A stretch of 64,000 bases of DNA from Streptomyces colonosanans (GTDB lineage: Bacteria > Actinomycetota > Actinomycetes > Streptomycetales > Streptomycetaceae). The notes under the pieces are model-generated. The model had not been told where the DNA came from and did no database searches. It was given only the letters and a program-made list of their open reading frames with translations. Where the stretch lies: the NCBI RefSeq assembly GCF_001866645.1, contig NZ_MLYP01000032.1, positions 1-64,000 of the forward strand, read 5' to 3'. The position numbers and the translations under genes are program-made. The stretch's first letter is position 1; the number at the start of each line of letters is the position of its first letter. This document shows, piece after piece, positions 37,150 to 46,208 of this stretch.

Positions 37150-38289
37150 TCAGTGCTCTCGCTTCCTGTCGGAGTGCGGGTCTGTCGCGGGTAGTTCCAC
37201 AGTGATGCGGAGCCCGCCGGCAGAGCGTGGGGTGAGGGTGAGTGTTCCGTCGTGTGCGTGGGTGATGGTCTTGACGATCGCCAGGCCGAGGCCGACGCCT
37301 GCGTGGTCGGTGCGGATACGTTTGGTGCCGCGCTGGAACGGTTCGGTGAGCGTTGAGACCAGCTGCGGGGTGAGCCGCTCGCCGGTGTTCTCGACAGCGA
37401 GCACCACATTGTTGGGGCGGATGCTGGTATTCACCCACACGATGCCCTGTTCAGGCAGATTGTGGACGATCGCGTTCTGCACGAGGTTCGTGGTCAGCTG
37501 CAGGAGGAGCGCGTGCGATCCGATCGTGGGGGTGATGTCGCCGCGGGTCTCGATGGCGACGCCATGCTGTTCCGCGAGGGGCAGGAGCGTTTCGGTGGCT
37601 TCTTCCGCTATGAGGGACAGGTCCACGTGTTCTCGGGTGAAGGACCGCTGCTCAGCACGGCTGAGCAGGAGCAATGACTCGGTGAGGTCGATCGCCCGGG
37701 TATTGACAGCGTGGAGGCGGTCGATGACTTCGCCGGCGTCGTGGTTCGGATCGGTGCGGGCAACATCAAGGAGTGCCTTCGAGATCGCCAGCGGGGTGCG
37801 CAACTCGTGCGAGGCGTTGCCTGCGAATCTCTGCTGTTCGGTGACGTGTGCTTCGAGCCGTGCCAGCATCGTGTCGAAGGCGTCGGCGAGTTCGCGGAAC
37901 TCATCTTTGCGGCCCGGTAGCCGGATTCGGTGGGAGAGCGATCCGGTCGAGGCCAGGCGGGTGGCGTCCGTGATGCGGGTCAGGGGGGTGAGCATGCGGC
38001 CAGCAAGGATCCACCCTCCCACGAGGCCGAGCACCAGCAGGAATGCCGACACTGCGGCTGCCCTCGGAGCGAAAACGTGCAGGAGGTTGGACCGGATGGG
38101 AAAAACACCCTCAGTGGGGGTGCCAGTGGAGCCGGGGACGATGAGCGCACGCTCGGGGACATAACGCAGGAGGAACACCCACACCGCCGCGAGCAGCAGG
38201 ACGCCGGCCAGCATGAGGAACCCGGCGTAGCTGAGGGTGAGTTTGAGGCGAATGCTCAATCCAGGTGCTCTATCCACGCTCGCCTCCAT
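37150..38289 (-). CDS. Sensor histidine kinase (CutS/VanS-like)
   Basis: The 379-residue protein starts at the ATG at 38289, overlapping the regulator gene by 20 nt. Two membrane helices (about 18-42 and 76-99) flank a short extracytoplasmic loop of about 33 residues. A HAMP region follows, then the phosphoacceptor His161 in ASHELRTPLA. The ATPase domain has the N-box LVQNAIVHN, the G1 box and GVGLGLAIVK. The short sensor loop is like kinases that sense cell-envelope signals. It works with the upstream response regulator. Downstream 36907-37149 holds only a short unrecognised minus-strand tail. Confidence 0.87.
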   Translation of the reverse strand: MEASVDRAPGLSIRLKLTLSYAGFLMLAGVLLLAAVWVFLLRYVPERALIVPGSTGTPTEGVFPIRSNLLHVFAPRAAAVSAFLLVLGLVGGWILAGRMLTPLTRITDATRLASTGSLSHRIRLPGRKDEFRELADAFDTMLARLEAHVTEQQRFAGNASHELRTPLAISKALLDVARTDPNHDAGEVIDRLHAVNTRAIDLTESLLLLSRAEQRSFTREHVDLSLIAEEATETLLPLAEQHGVAIETRGDITPTIGSHALLLQLTTNLVQNAIVHNLPEQGIVWVNTSIRPNNVVLAVENTGERLTPQLVSTLTEPFQRGTKRIRTDHAGVGLGLAIVKTITHAHDGTLTLTPRSAGGLRITVELPATDPHSDRKREH

Positions 38290-38965
38290 CGTGTCCGGCC
38301 TCTGGTTGCGTGTCGATGCGGTAGCCGACGCCTGGCACGGTGGCGATGATCCAGGGTTCGCCGAGACGCTTGCGCAGTGCCGAGACGGTGATGCGCACGG
38401 CGTTGGTGAAGGGGTCGGCGTTCTCATCCCACGCGCGTTCCAGGATTTCTTCGGCGCTGACGACACCGCCTTCTGCGGCGACGAGGACTTCGAGCACGGC
38501 GAACTGCTTCCGGGTGAGCGCGACGTAGCGGCCGTGCCGGTAGACCTCGCGGCGGAACGGATCCAGACGCAGTCCTGCGATCTCTCGCACGGGTGGTCTG
38601 TTGTGGGCGCGCCTGCGGTCGAGTGCTCTGAGCCTGAGCGCGAGTTCCTTGAGTTCGAAAGGTTTTGTGAGGTAGTCGTCAGCGCCGAGTCCGAACCCGG
38701 ATGCCTTGTCGTCGAGACGGTCGGCCGCGGTGAGCATGAGGATCGGCATGCCGCTGCCGGAGGCGACGATGCGTTTGGCGATCTCGTCACCGGACGGTCC
38801 GGGGATGTCGCGGTCGAGGATGGCGATGCCGTAGGTGTTGATGCTCAGCAGTTCCAGAGCGGTGTGGCCGTCACCTGCGATGTCGGCCGCGATCGCTTCG
38901 AGGCGTAGGCCGTCGCGGATGGCTTCTGCCAGAAAGGGTTCGTCCTCGACGATCAACACGCGCAT
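38270..38965 (-). CDS. OmpR-family response regulator (CutR/VanR-like)
   Basis: The 231-residue protein starts at the ATG at 38965 (MRVLIVEDEP). The receiver has acidic residues at 8-9, phosphoacceptor Asp51 in ILDRDIPG, and Thr/Lys in LTAADR and LTKPF. The winged-helix output domain has WDENADPFTNAVRITVSALR and IIATVPGVGYRI, a wording close to CutR of Streptomyces. It forms an operon with the kinase gene and is divergent from the VanY/VanJ-like genes, which are probable targets (inference). Confidence 0.88.
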   Translation of the reverse strand: MRVLIVEDEPFLAEAIRDGLRLEAIAADIAGDGHTALELLSINTYGIAILDRDIPGPSGDEIAKRIVASGSGMPILMLTAADRLDDKASGFGLGADDYLTKPFELKELALRLRALDRRRAHNRPPVREIAGLRLDPFRREVYRHGRYVALTRKQFAVLEVLVAAEGGVVSAEEILERAWDENADPFTNAVRITVSALRKRLGEPWIIATVPGVGYRIDTQPEAGHDGGERG

Positions 38966-38988
38966 GCTCTTGATGCTACGAGCCGGCG

Positions 38989-39026
38989 CATATCGTCGGC
39001 GTATCGAAAATCCCATACGTGCCGAC
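38989..39026. promoter_or_regulatory. Candidate response-regulator binding repeats
   Basis: In the 87-bp region between the divergent regulator and VanY-remnant genes, CATATCG (38989-38995) and CGTATCG (39000-39006) form direct repeats 11 bp apart, the spacing used by OmpR-family dimers. GTCGGCGTAT and ATACGTGCCGAC (38995-39026) add an imperfect inverted repeat. Confidence 0.4.
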
Positions 39027-39052
39027 AACACCAGGCTGCGTTGACTGGCGGC

Positions 39053-39388
39053 ATGAATCACACCCCGCCATCAGCGCGGACAACGAGCCGTCGGATCCAC
39101 CGGCGTCCGGTTGTCGGCCTGATAGTTGTCATCGCAGCGATCGCCGCAACCCTCGGCTGTCAGTCGCAGAATTCCTCGTCTTCTTCGTCCTCCTCAGCCG
39201 TACCGCCCTTGATCGGGCACTTTGATGCGACGGCTTGACTGTCCACACACGGTGCCGAGTACGGGTTGTGCCAGAACTACCGCAACGAACCCTGGCACTA
39301 CGAACTGCGCCCCAAAGCGATCGACGACGGCTGCCCGACTATGTATGCCTATGCCAACCCCACCCAGGACCCGAGGATGCAGCAGTGA
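39053..39388 (+). pseudogene. VanY-type D,D-carboxypeptidase with internal deletion
   Basis: From the ATG at 39053 an N-terminal hydrophobic anchor (VGLIVVIAAIAATLGC) leads to a serine-rich linker and a TGA at 39236-39238. Directly after it, in the same frame, LSTHGAEYGLCQNYRNEPWHYELRP continues to DPRMQQ and a stop at 39386-39388. The second part is the end of an M15B/VanY peptidase with its EPWHYE zinc motif. The middle ~150 residues with the other zinc ligands are deleted. Only a 61-residue lipoprotein-like peptide can be made. Confidence 0.75.
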
Positions 39389-40491
39389 CCGGCAGTGAAC
39401 CAGGACAGACGATGACGCAGGTGGACACGGCGGAGACCAGACAGGGCGGCACCGGTCGCCGGGAGTCCGGCGCCGAGACCTGGCGTGCGCGCAGACGCCG
39501 GGCGATACGCGCCGCCTCCCGGCCGGGGCCCTGGAAGCGCGGCCTGGTGCCCGCGGCACTGGCGCTGCTGCTCGGGCTGTTCATGCTGCTGCACGTGAAG
39601 ATTCCGAACCGGAGGATCGGGAACCTGGGCAGCTTGGTGGAGACCTTCCTGCCGTGGTTCGGCTTGTTCATCCCGGTGCTGCTGGCCGGGGCGCTGTGGC
39701 GCCGCTCCGCCTCCGCCGTGGTCGCGCTACTGCTGCCGGTCGTGGTGTGGCTGAACCTCTTCGGCGGGCTGCTCGGCGACAAGTCCCACCCGGGCAGCGA
39801 CCTCACCGTGGCCGAGCAAAACGTCAACGCCAACAACCCCGACCCGGCCGGCACCGCCCGCGACCTGGCCGCCTCCGGCGCGGACGTGCTGGCCCTGGTG
39901 GAGCTTACCCCGCAGGCCACGGGCACGTACGAGAAGGAGCTGGCGAAAGCGTACCCACACCACACGGTGCAGGGCACGGTGGGGCTGTGGAGCAAGCTGC
40001 CGCTGTCGGGCACCCAGCCGATCGACATCATGGACTACGGGCCGCTGGCGGACACCATGCCGGTCGACAAAAAGACGGCCTCGAACCGGGCGCTGCGCAC
40101 CACGGTGGCCATGGACCACGGGCCGCTGACGGTGTATGTGGCCCACCTGGGGTCCGTACGGGTGAATCCCAAGGCGGGCTTTTGGACGACCTCGCGGGAC
40201 ATGGGCGTGCAGGTGCTCGGCAAGGCCATCGCCGCCGGTCCGAGTAAGCGGGTGGTGCTGCTCGGCGACCTGAACGGCACCATGGACGACCGCGCGTTCG
40301 CCGACATCACCTCACAGATGCACTCGACCCAGGACGCGGCCGGGGACGGCTTCGGCTTCACCTGGCCGGCAAGGTTCCCGGTGGCGCGGATCGACCAGAT
40401 CCTGGTCCGCGGCGTGGAGCCGGACAGCTCGTGGGTGCTCCCGGCAAACGGCAGCGACCACTTGCCGGTGGCGGCCGGAATCAGCTGGTGA
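39385..40491 (+). CDS. VanJ/StaP-like membrane endonuclease/exonuclease/phosphatase (EEP) protein
   Basis: The protein has 368 residues from the GTG at 39385, which overlaps the VanY-remnant stop by 4 nt (GTGA) and follows GAGGA; an ATG at 39412 is an alternative. Three membrane helices (about 53-70, 87-105 and 110-128) precede an EEP domain outside the membrane: AEQNVNANN, a metal-binding glutamate in LALVELT (Glu173), LLGDLNGT and the final GSDHLPV. VanJ of the S. coelicolor van cluster and StaP have exactly this layout and give teicoplanin resistance, probably by acting on a lipid-linked wall precursor. Placement after VanY and opposite a CutR/VanR-like system supports a cell-wall role. 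Confidence 0.8.
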   Translation: MTGSEPGQTMTQVDTAETRQGGTGRRESGAETWRARRRRAIRAASRPGPWKRGLVPAALALLLGLFMLLHVKIPNRRIGNLGSLVETFLPWFGLFIPVLLAGALWRRSASAVVALLLPVVVWLNLFGGLLGDKSHPGSDLTVAEQNVNANNPDPAGTARDLAASGADVLALVELTPQATGTYEKELAKAYPHHTVQGTVGLWSKLPLSGTQPIDIMDYGPLADTMPVDKKTASNRALRTTVAMDHGPLTVYVAHLGSVRVNPKAGFWTTSRDMGVQVLGKAIAAGPSKRVVLLGDLNGTMDDRAFADITSQMHSTQDAAGDGFGFTWPARFPVARIDQILVRGVEPDSSWVLPANGSDHLPVAAGISW

Positions 40492-40930: not shown

Positions 40931-42179
40931 GTGCTCAGCGTAGTTTCCAACGACGGCTCCACCCAGTCCGGCTCCCTCGTCGACGAGATCGTCCGCGAGG
41001 GCGCCCGGCGGATTGGCCGCCGCGCTGGAGGCGGAAGTCAACCAGTACATAGCCGAGTTGGCGGGAGAACGGGACGAGCGCGGACATCGCCTGGTGGTCC
41101 GCAACGGCCACCACCAGTCCCGCACCGTTGTCACCGCGGCCGGTCCCGTCGAGGTTACCGCGCCCCGGGTGAACGACCGCCGCGTCGACGACGAGACCGG
41201 CGAGCGCAAGCGGTTCGCGTCCAAGATTCTGGCTCCGTGGTGCCGCAAGTCCCCGAAGATCTCGGAAGTGCTGCCGCTGCTCTACCTGCACGGGCTCTCC
41301 TCCGGCGACTTCGTACCCGCACTGGAGCAGTTCCTCGGCGGCGTGACTGGCCTCTCGCCGGCGACGGTGACCCGGCTGACGAAGCAGTGGAGCGACGATT
41401 ACGCGGCCTTCCAGCAGCGAGATCTCTCGGAGCGCGACTACGTCTACGTGTGGGCGGACGGGGTCCACCCCAAGGGCCGGCTCGGGCAGACGCATTCCTG
41501 TGTCCTGGTCCTGCTCGGCGTCCGCCTGGACGGCTCCAAGGAGCTGCTCGCGCTCGCCGAGGGGCTGCGGGAGAGCACGAAGTCATGGGCCGACCTGCTG
41601 CGCGACTGCCGCCGCCGCGGGATGCGCGACCCGGAGCTCGTCGTCGGCGACGGCGCGATGGGGCTATGGCGGGCCCTGGCCGAGGTGTTCCCCGTCGCCC
41701 GCCACCAGCGCTGCTGGGTCCACGAAGCCCGGAACGTCTCGAACTGCCTGCCGAAGTCCGCACAACCGGGTGCAACGAAGGCGATGCAGGAGATCTACAA
41801 CGCCGAGGACCGCGCCCACGCCGAGAAGGCGATCGAAGCCTTCGCGAAGACCTACAGCGCGAAATGGCCCAAGGCCGTCGCGAAGATCACCGAAGATCAG
41901 GAGGGACTACTCGCGTTCTACGACTTCCCCGCGGAGCACTGGGTCCATCTGCGGACCACGGACCCGATCGAGTCGACGTTCTCCACGGTCAAGCTCCGTA
42001 CCAAGGTCACCCGCGGCGCCGGTAGTCCGGCCGCAGCCCTGGCGATGGTGTACAAGCTCGTCGAATCCGCCCAAGCACGCTGGCGCGCGATCACCGGACC
42101 CCACCTCGTACCCTTGGTCCGCGCCGGAGCCCGCTTCGAAAACGGCGTATTGGTCGAGCGCCAGCAGGAGGCCGCTTGA
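40931..42179 (+). mobile_element. IS256-family transposase gene with 5' frameshift
   Basis: The normal start is the GTG at 40931 (LSVVSNDGSTQSGSLVDEIVREGARR). A 2-nt loss near 41011 shifts the frame. The remaining 388 residues are open from a TTG at 41013 (AAALEAEVNQYIAEL). The DDE triad is complete: Asp in VWADGVHP, Asp in VVGDGAMGLW and Glu in DPIESTFSTVKLR, followed by the usual C-terminus. Either the TTG is used or the element is dead. I could not identify matching terminal inverted repeats in the flanks. Confidence 0.85.
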
Positions 42180-44340: not shown

Positions 44341-44591
44341 TGGAGCGGCGCGGGCACCTCCTGCCAGGCCAGCAGCGGGGGTGCTTCAAGGTCCAGCACC
44401 TTCGACGCCGCGAACCAGCGGGTCGCTCACGCCGGGCTGACCTCGGTACGACGACCAGTGATCTTCCCGGAACGTGTATCGCGGACGTTTCGAAAATCGC
44501 ATACGCCACCGCAACAGTCTCCCGTCTTCAGTGGAGGCACGGACCACATTGCATCAACGGTCAGTTGGTCCATCGGGAGAGGACTGTGATC

Positions 44592-45824
44592 ATGAACCAG
44601 GATTCCGTACATAGTGTCGACCGGCGGCGGCTTCTCGGGTGGGGAGGGTTGGCGGCCACCGGCGTGATGGCAGGCGCGTCGCTGGTGGGCGCCCAGCCCG
44701 GCCACGCCGACCAGGCCCCAGCCGACCCGATTCCGTCAGACACCCGGCCTGGCGGAGCCTACGACCGGTATGTGGCCAAGTTGGCCGCCGAGGGCAAGTT
44801 CTCGGGCGTGGTGCTGTTGTCGCACCGGGGCCGGACTGTGCTGTCCCGCAGCTATGGGTTGGCCGACAAGGAGAGGGGGATCGCCAACCACGAGGGCGTA
44901 GCGTTCAGCCTCAGTTCGGCGGGCAAGCCGTTCGGCGCGGTTGCCATCTTGCAGTTGGCGCAGCAGGGCAAGGTGAAGCTGTCGGACACGGTGGGCACCC
45001 ATCTCAAGGGCTTCGCCAAGGAGATCGCCGAGCAGGTGACCATCCACCACGTGTTGTCCGGCACTTCCGGACTGGACAACACGAATGAGGACGTGCAACG
45101 CGTCTTCAACAGCCAAGATGACGTGCACGAGTATTACGAGCAGCGGGCCCGGCAGGCGAAGCTGATGGGCGTCCCGGGCGTTCCAGACACCGCCCATGAG
45201 GAGGCAGAGATCACCATTTCCGCGCTGATCGTGGAGGCCGTGACCGGCAAGACGTACTGGGACTACGTGCAGGAGAACATCTTCGAGCGCTGCGGCATGA
45301 CCGGCTCGGCGTTCTACACCAGGACGCAGTGGCTCACCGACGAGCACATCGCGCACCCGTACATGGAGCTGGCCGACGGCAGTGTGGTGGACGCCGTCCG
45401 CAACCTGGACAAGAGCAGCCCGGACCCAAACGTACCCGGCAAAAATCCGGGCCGCGCCTTCATCGATGCCCCCGGGGACGGCGGCTTCGCCACCGCGCCG
45501 GATCTGGCCCGGTTCGCCCGCGCGCTGGGGGACGGCACGGTGCTCGACCGGCCCTGGGCCGACGTGCTCACTGCCGCGAAGATCCCGCATGGACCGGCGT
45601 CGTTCGGGGCCTACGGGATTCCGGTCTCCATCGTCAACGGCCAGTGGAACTACCAGCGCGCCGGTGGTAACCCCGGTGTCAGTGCCAACTGGGACATCTA
45701 CCCCTACACCGGCTGGGTCGGTGTCATCCTCGGCAACCGCGACGGCGTGCCGCTCCAGGAGATGATCGCGCAGGAGATGCAGGCCGTCACCGGGGCCCCG
45801 GTCGGCGGGGGATCGGGCGGCTGA
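44592..45824 (+). CDS. Tat-exported beta-lactamase-class-C-like serine hydrolase
   Basis: The 410-residue protein starts at the ATG at 44592, with AGAGGACT upstream. The twin-arginine leader VDRRRLLGWGG (9-19) suggests Tat export. The SxxK nucleophile lies in SLSSAGKPFG (Ser109, Lys112). The family normally has a YxN motif about 100 residues later in the run before 'EITxxALIVEAVTGK'. Here that place reads PDTAHEEAEITISALI, with no Tyr or Asn. The C-terminal half (CGMTGSAFYTR, HIAHPYMELADG, GDGGFATAPDLARF) is regular. D,D-peptidase or esterase activity is therefore uncertain. The tail is Gly-rich. Confidence 0.82.
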   Translation: MNQDSVHSVDRRRLLGWGGLAATGVMAGASLVGAQPGHADQAPADPIPSDTRPGGAYDRYVAKLAAEGKFSGVVLLSHRGRTVLSRSYGLADKERGIANHEGVAFSLSSAGKPFGAVAILQLAQQGKVKLSDTVGTHLKGFAKEIAEQVTIHHVLSGTSGLDNTNEDVQRVFNSQDDVHEYYEQRARQAKLMGVPGVPDTAHEEAEITISALIVEAVTGKTYWDYVQENIFERCGMTGSAFYTRTQWLTDEHIAHPYMELADGSVVDAVRNLDKSSPDPNVPGKNPGRAFIDAPGDGGFATAPDLARFARALGDGTVLDRPWADVLTAAKIPHGPASFGAYGIPVSIVNGQWNYQRAGGNPGVSANWDIYPYTGWVGVILGNRDGVPLQEMIAQEMQAVTGAPVGGGSGG

Positions 45825-46091: not shown

Positions 46092-46208
46092 ACTCGGTGG
46101 TTATAGCGTGAGGGAAACGCCCGATTACATTCCGAACCCGGAAGCTAAGCCTCACAGCGCCGATGGTACTGCAGGGGGACCCAGTGGGAGAGTAGGACGC
46201 CGCCGAAC
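46092..46208 (+). rRNA. rrf: 5S ribosomal RNA, orphan
   Basis: The gene is about 117 nt, from the helix-I strand CTCGGTGG to its partner CCGCCGA. It contains the conserved blocks TAGCGTGAGGGAAACGCCC, CCGAACCCGGAAGCTAAGCC, GCGCCGATGGTACTGC and GAGAGTAGGACGCCGCCG. Helix III (GTGAGG/CCTCAC) is intact. The segment GCAGGGGGACCCAGTGG appears one G shorter and has a T-to-A change compared with the Streptomyces sequence I remember (GGGGGGACCCTGTGG). There is no 16S or 23S gene body upstream in this window. Transcription would need an unknown promoter. Confidence 0.9.

Follow-up and report, generated by a model that had tools for sequence, protein, structure and literature searches.

VanRS is best known as the switch for vanHAX, and a locus in Streptomyces colonosanans raises the question of what such a sensor-regulator pair controls where no D-Ala-D-Lac ligase is found in the draft genome. 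The stretch of DNA analysed here, hereafter the window, comprises 64,000 nucleotides (NCBI RefSeq assembly GCF_001866645.1, contig NZ_MLYP01000032.1, positions 1 to 64,000 of the forward strand). Within it, the genes for a VanS-type kinase and a VanR-type regulator lie divergent from a remnant of vanY and from a gene for a VanJ-type membrane EEP protein (Table 1). An earlier note on this DNA took the arrangement for a relic of a glycopeptide and cell-wall response locus, with VanJ as its only surviving output. The comparisons reported below make it fairly likely that this is instead a working VanRS-type cell-wall-stress locus, its function being deduced from sequence, and that its present outputs would be VanJ and a serine hydrolase for which we coin the name BlaH, with VanY dead.

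The EEP protein contains an Exo_endo_phos domain (1.3e-21) and scores 537.7 bits (1.1e-161) against the vanJ equivalog model NF000373, the curated cut-off of which (700) is not reached. Across 199 genomes of the genus, that cut-off is passed in two, at loci L034 and L035, whose VanJ proteins are 71-72% identical to that of the window. A vanJ-model match of some kind occurs in 198 of the 199 genomes; matches above 440 bits were found in 45, including the window's, and the listed matches of the rest score 418 bits or less. The other 44 high-scoring cassettes were examined with up to about 7 kb on each side, some contigs ending sooner. Beside these accessory VanJ genes, VanR is encoded at 43/44 loci and VanS at 41/44. 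In a VanJ protein tree, from which L069 (too few filled columns) and StaP of S. toyocaensis are left out, the cassettes, including the window, are split with a support of 100 from three rows of a ubiquitous paralogue. The window protein thus groups with VanJ in this tree without StaP, in line with the earlier note. Its identity with the ubiquitous Streptomyces paralogue was considered and ruled out, as it is only 55% identical to the copy in its own genome (L033, G000:C46:64712-65626), which falls on the opposite side of that branch and has no VanRS beside it. The tree grouping, the adjacent vanRS and the VanR-type motif upstream identify the protein as VanJ by orthology and context. The window keeps 74 of the 75 VanJ columns in which conservation among the 44 relatives reaches 97% or more, and we see no clear decay of its VanJ at the sequence level. 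A sequence search at 0.001 returned no VanJ relatives of known structure.

The best NCBIfam models for the two regulatory proteins are VanS-O (502.5 bits, curated cut-off 720) and VanR-O (459.8 bits, curated cut-off 505). Both scores are far above any other model's match, though under the cut-offs of these exception models, and we class the proteins as VanS- and VanR-type only, that is, as members in kind. Both reading frames are open and conserved in the window, and its VanR is 86-95% identical to VanR of 43 of the 44 relative loci. The domains, models and coordinates together confirm the earlier description of a VanR-like regulator and kinase divergent from a VanY remnant.

The vanY frame runs from an ATG at 39053 to a TGA at 39386-39388, and the phase from start to final stop is preserved over 111 codons, one of them an internal stop. 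In one-on-one comparisons with the intact VanY of L036 (220 codons), the 5' piece of 61 codons corresponds to residues 1-37 (65%, E 7e-12) and the 3' piece of 49 codons to residues 174-220 (80%, E 2e-26). The segments NSGWRSP and SPHVSGDAVD are missing, and two extra residues are present near the end. We take SxHxxGxAxD and EPWH to be the zinc-binding motifs of VanY D,D-carboxypeptidases (M15B); the first is deleted and the frame is interrupted, so that the two do not occur in one open frame. Judged by these losses VanY is dead, as the earlier note had concluded in calling it gutted, and the GTGA by which its stop overlaps the EEP gene is real (39385-39388). Two PF02557 matches elsewhere in the genome (contigs C102 and C125) were tried as a second Van-type VanY and rejected, as they lack similarity to the L036 protein at 1e-8. 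The best full-length DNA match to the locus among the best 30 matches is L198 (83%), with a leader of 92 amino acids that lacks the first zinc motif. The right-hand edge of its deletion resembles that of the window, and the deletion may be shared; the internal stop is absent from L198 and is not common to the two.

The region upstream of vanR, which is shared with vanY or vanJ where these are divergent, is strongly conserved and yields the 44-nt consensus CATATCGTCGGCGTATCGAAAACCGCATACGnGCCGGCAACACC, which contains a TATCG-N6-TATCG repeat. The consensus was built from 52 sites, L056 and the window having been excluded from an initial 54, so that it contains no site from the window. A position weight matrix derived from the vanR upstream region also finds sites before vanK and vanH in vanHAX loci; in L034 and L035 the motif precedes vanR/vanJ, vanK and vanH. 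The window's genome gave two motif matches only at E ≤ 10, with 150 of 3835 first-look candidates scored, and both lie in the window, one between vanR and vanY and the other before blaH. A sigma-70 scan detected no promoter. On the strength of the conservation of the motif and its gene associations, VanR is predicted to bind it.

Across the genus, a motif match at E ≤ 0.001 occurs in 100/199 genomes. In 40 stretches fetched around a part of the listed motif places, the frame after the motif most often begins 20 nt past the motif end. Besides vanY or vanJ, vanK and vanH, the downstream frames encode VanZ-like proteins beside VanRS and, in L151, a Mur ligase. Most of L112-L144 have the motif followed by a VanZ-like protein and VanRS (PF04892 in L112 and L118, which were tested; the others by eye). 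The Mur ligase at L151:3407-4831 directly follows the motif and has three Mur ligase Pfam domains, and L146-L149 look alike by eye. No van-type query gene was found in the stretches around the motifs of L134 (3484), L144 (3403) and L140 (3858).

BlaH, encoded about 4 kb downstream of the vanJ region, belongs to peptidase family S12 by its domain (PF00144, 136.6 bits, cut-off 27) and is probably exported. By sequence, its relatives in the PDB are 3tg9, a penicillin-binding protein of Bacillus, and the R61 DD-peptidase of Streptomyces, and a predicted model of moderate confidence (pLDDT 62) matches these relatives by fold as well. The likeness to the R61 enzyme thus extends to sequence, fold and S-x-x-K; in contrast to R61, BlaH lacks Y-S-N, the R61 alignment being gapped at that place and the BlaH model having a confidence of 62. 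We assume that S-x-x-K and Y-x-N are the catalytic motifs of the family; BlaH retains the former as S109-A-G-K112, and the latter is absent. An alignment of 32 BlaH proteins shows no variation at Ser109 or His202 and almost none at Lys112, and His202 aligns to the Tyr of Y-S-N in a 43% homologue (L160). Because His202 replaces this Tyr, BlaH may act differently from a DD-peptidase, or may only bind.

The pairing of blaH with the motif extends beyond the window. A BlaH match at 1e-60 was found in 10/199 genomes of the genus, in eight of which (the window's included) the identity is at least 70%. In all eight, a motif-like site precedes the match by 52-94 nt (48.4, 39.0, 38.7, 36.2, 30.9, 24.0, 21.3 and 4.5 bits, the last degenerate and the two before it weak), and none was found before the two homologues at 42-43%. 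A VanR-type motif occurs in 8/8 genomes with BlaH and in 92/191 others (Fisher 0.007), a count that includes the motif before blaH itself, 7/8 of the BlaH genomes having another motif listed. A further scan covered 35 related blaH loci of other genomes, distributed over Streptomyces, Actinomadura, Microbispora, Streptosporangium and others; one species contributed two of the loci, and two come from metagenome assemblies. The motif lies near the blaH start in 30/35; of the remaining five, L165 and L186 are at contig ends, L193 and L195 are partial matches, and L172 is a vanJ-blaH tandem with the motif before vanJ. Because a conserved second VanR-type motif precedes a serine hydrolase gene, VanJ is probably not the only surviving output, and this part of the earlier note is not supported.

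It is quite unlikely that the site before blaH arose by chance or belongs to an unrelated regulator. It scores lower than the vanR/vanY site, and VanR binding there is predicted only. Against a chance origin stand its recurrence at the 30 related loci and the presence of VanR, VanS or VanJ within the fetched stretch at 16/35. In 657 random windows of 460 nt, the mean best motif score was -43.8 (SD 9.2), the four top values equalling those of listed second motifs.

Loss of VanY recurs among the cassettes. Classified by eye, the 45 comprise 15 with VanY intact, 7 dead, 22 absent and 1 elsewhere; the full-length VanY of L201, a locus of a further set described below, has one changed zinc-motif residue and was counted as not intact. 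Mapped on a tree built from VanJ, VanR and VanS, the intact and non-intact states require 10 changes (shuffled mean 12.7), and the branches starred in that tree alone force three. After exclusion of the 6/45 cassettes lacking a motif within 1.5 kb before VanJ, 24 have the motif and no intact VanY: 10 with separate leaders, 12 in which the leader continues in frame into VanJ, L057, which has no start near +20 and hence no leader, and the window. The separate leaders other than the window's (L037, L040-L043, L047-L049, L053 and L060) start at the usual +20 place, and at their end 10/10 overlap a start codon in the VanJ frame by exactly 4 nt (GTGA or ATGA). Alone among the 24, the window has a leader that ends well short of VanJ: its stop, at 39236, is 149 nt upstream of the VanJ GTG, and 32 nt past this stop there is an additional GTG in the VanJ frame.

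None of the 23 leaders without an intact VanY, the window included, is in the third frame, for which the chance is 9e-5 on the assumption of random frames and independent loci, an assumption that does not hold fully; some fused leader-VanJ forms may never have had VanY. A second set was taken from the 30 best-match loci, among which near relatives are over-represented: 17 were used, the rest being the window, 11 genomes already examined and L226 (vanR side only). Again none of the 17 is in the third frame. Both zinc motifs are present in 9/17; among the others, the separate leaders of L198, L201, L203, L207 and L221 all end in the 4-nt overlap, and three more are fused. Because leaders without an intact VanY avoid the third frame and overlap or fuse with VanJ, we infer that, once VanY is lost, translation from the leader into VanJ is selected for.

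The relic proposed earlier would be the remainder of a vanRS-JKHAX resistance cluster that lost vanHAX and VanY and retained VanJ as its only output. In the draft genome, which is in 166 contigs and has a stated completeness of 99.98%, the ligase model gives two matches. The better scores 235.3 bits, under the cut-off of 550, and we read it as an ordinary Ddl; a D-Ala-D-Lac ligase elsewhere in the genome was considered and rejected on this score, and no place in a VanA-type D-Ala-D-Lac cluster can be given to the locus. The claim that vanHAX are absent thus holds for the ligase in the draft genome, VanH and VanX not having been searched separately genome-wide. The genome also encodes two VanK/FemX-like proteins (51% and 48%). 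The missing ligase and the dead VanY would fit a relic, as would the six relatives that keep a complete vanK-H-A-X near vanJ (L034, L035, L058, L059, L075 and L077) and the 46-residue VanK match beside vanJ in L062. However, within some 7 kb no complete vanKHAX is present at 38/44 related loci, at least one of them from a genome (G189) that carries vanK and vanHAX elsewhere, and such a set is found in 0/14 rows of the window's subgroup on the tree; that tree is rooted at the midpoint, so that any ancestry read from it is provisional. The usual form is vanRS-(vanY)-vanJ with no complete vanKHAX next to it, and the locus need not be a vanHAX relic. Because of these two counts the relic is not upheld, and with the second motif before blaH also against it we regard it as unlikely.

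Similarly improbable is a locus on its way out, with VanY dead, the leader cut, VanJ hardly translated and the regulators not yet lost. Such decay would agree with the shortened leader, in which the window stands alone among the 24 comparable cassettes, with a marginally raised VanJ dN/dS, and with L126 and L135, which keep VanRS and the motif without VanJ. Against it are the open and conserved VanR and VanS frames, the intact motif 1, the 74 conserved VanJ columns that are kept and the GAGGA site before VanJ. That the vanY stop and deletion are assembly or sequencing errors and VanY is really intact is very improbable: the genome is a draft judged from published letters without reads, but a large in-frame deletion combined with a stop and a two-codon addition is atypical of assembly error, and VanY of L198 is also shortened.

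Several points nevertheless weigh against a working locus with VanJ and BlaH as outputs. VanS, VanR and VanJ of the window are each under the cut-off of their model, motif 2 scores well under motif 1 (27.6 versus 52.5 bits), and the genome scan that found it scored the 150 candidates already mentioned. Without the usual Y-x-N motif, the enzymatic role of BlaH is unclear. VanJ dN/dS is 0.587 in pairs with the window (n = 8) and 0.511 in other pairs (n = 28), a measure too blunt in such GC-rich DNA to reveal relaxed selection, and VanJ, uncoupled from its leader in the window, may be translated weakly. Where VanY is intact in the first set, 11/15 loci are in the coupling frame and 4/15 in the third. 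The 45 cassettes were chosen by VanJ score, so that losses of VanJ are under-counted; in L133, VanJ is split into two parts that are not in the same frame, and over 8 kb neither VanJ nor VanY is matched in L126 and L135. This choice of the sample, together with the loss of VanJ in some relatives, slightly lowers our confidence. Sensing, binding, coupling and phenotype are moreover all inferred.

In a working VanRS-type locus, VanS would, to judge from its family, sense a glycopeptide or a glycopeptide-wall complex and would phosphorylate VanR, and VanR would activate promoters bearing the 44-nt motif, the binding being predicted and the conservation observed. One unit under the motif would be vanY-vanJ, with a dead VanY and an intact VanJ, the translation of which presumably starts from a GAGGA site of its own; the second would be blaH, encoding an S12-type serine hydrolase. 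Decay of VanY is a recurrent step of the cassette, after which the vanY start and frame usually persist as a translated leader or fusion for VanJ, and in the window even this leader is cut short. As no D-Ala-D-Lac ligase was found, the expected effect would be a VanJ-type (teicoplanin) response and not vancomycin resistance. A more specific proposal is that actinomycete VanRS systems control BlaH as a hitherto unrecognised secreted S12 protein whose catalytic Tyr has given way to an invariant His, that VanY is repeatedly lost while its frame is kept as a leader coupled to VanJ, and that the window combines both with the first break of this coupling; we would give it an even chance.

L034 and L035 are read as loci of the S. 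coelicolor type (vanRS-vanJ-vanK-vanHAX), which share with the window the divergent vanRS/vanJ and the same motif; unlike them, the window lacks a D-Ala-D-Lac ligase, its vanJ follows a dead vanY, and the motif occurs a second time, upstream of blaH. The S. coelicolor genes include SCO3589, 3592 and 3594 (PMC9779433). VanY and VanJ accompany VanRS also in the pekiskomycin cluster of Streptomyces sp. WAC1420 (vanY, vanJ, vanHAX and vanRS; PMC7325946), whereas the window is without ligase or functional VanY, a likeness drawn from the published description and not from sequence. The actinomycete vanRSY triads (PMC8698665) resemble the window in having VanRS and VanY without vanHAX, and differ in that the window adds VanJ and its VanY is dead. 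In PMC8698665, vanJ is described as rare among Pseudonocardiales and Streptosporangiales, and a single mention is made of vanRS pairs that can lie beside beta-lactamase genes. Teicoplanin resistance through VanJ is reported for S. coelicolor, not for the window's protein (PMC4790382; PMC6001138). The reviews PMC7325946 and PMC4790382 differ as to whether StaO or StaP is the orthologue of VanJ. A literature search without supplements returned no report in which VanR targets BlaH or in which vanY acts as a leader for vanJ.

Here and in many other genomes, the neighbours of VanRS are VanJ, VanZ-like proteins, VanY and a serine hydrolase that had no name. The promoter motif appears clear enough for a candidate VanR regulon to be mapped computationally, which would make the role of VanJ, and the other changes in glycopeptide-responsive cells, testable. 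The VanY pattern would further offer a countable case of an enzyme gene that outlasts its enzyme by persisting as a translated leader.

Table 1. Features of the van-type locus and its surroundings, in positions of the window.
Feature	Position	Strand	Remarks
vanS-type histidine kinase	37150..38277	-	HAMP, HisKA, HATPase_c (Pfam); putative start GTG 38277, alternative ATG 38289
vanR-type response regulator	38270..38965	-	Response_reg and Trans_reg_C (Pfam)
VanR-type promoter motif 1	38989..39032	+	52.5 bits, E 2.8e-13 genome-wide; ends 20 nt before vanY ATG
vanY remnant	39053..39388	+	5' piece 39053-39235, stop 39236-39238, 3' piece 39239-39385, stop 39386-39388; catalytic middle deleted in frame
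GAGGA, Shine-Dalgarno-like	39373..39377	+	7 nt before VanJ GTG; read from sequence, putative function
vanJ-type membrane EEP protein	39385..40491	+	368 aa from GTG; Exo_endo_phos and vanJ model; in-frame ATG 39412 as alternative start
IS256-family transposase, between vanJ and blaH	41013..42179	+	NF033543 295.6 bits, cut-off 150
VanR-type promoter motif 2	44475..44518	+	Position weight matrix 38.7 bits; sequence-only model 44477-44516, 27.6 bits, E 1.7e-5
BlaH, S12/class C beta-lactamase-like serine hydrolase	44592..45824	+	Twin-arginine-like N-terminus; PF00144 136.6 bits

A cassette of vanRS and a vanJ-type gene also occurs on a plasmid of Streptomyces sp. NBC_01558 (NZ_CP109366.1, 678 kb, positions 64839-68049), with 84% DNA identity in two pieces. 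Just after blaH lies a 5S rRNA gene (46093-46208, 95.1 bits), the only hit of an Rfam scan and the only rRNA match in the 64-kb window; such an isolated gene is either an orphan 5S or an assembly seam. The ends of the insertion sequence between vanJ and blaH were not resolved by an inverted-repeat search, and copies similar to its transposase are found on many Streptomyces plasmids, at about 81-87% DNA identity among the matches listed.

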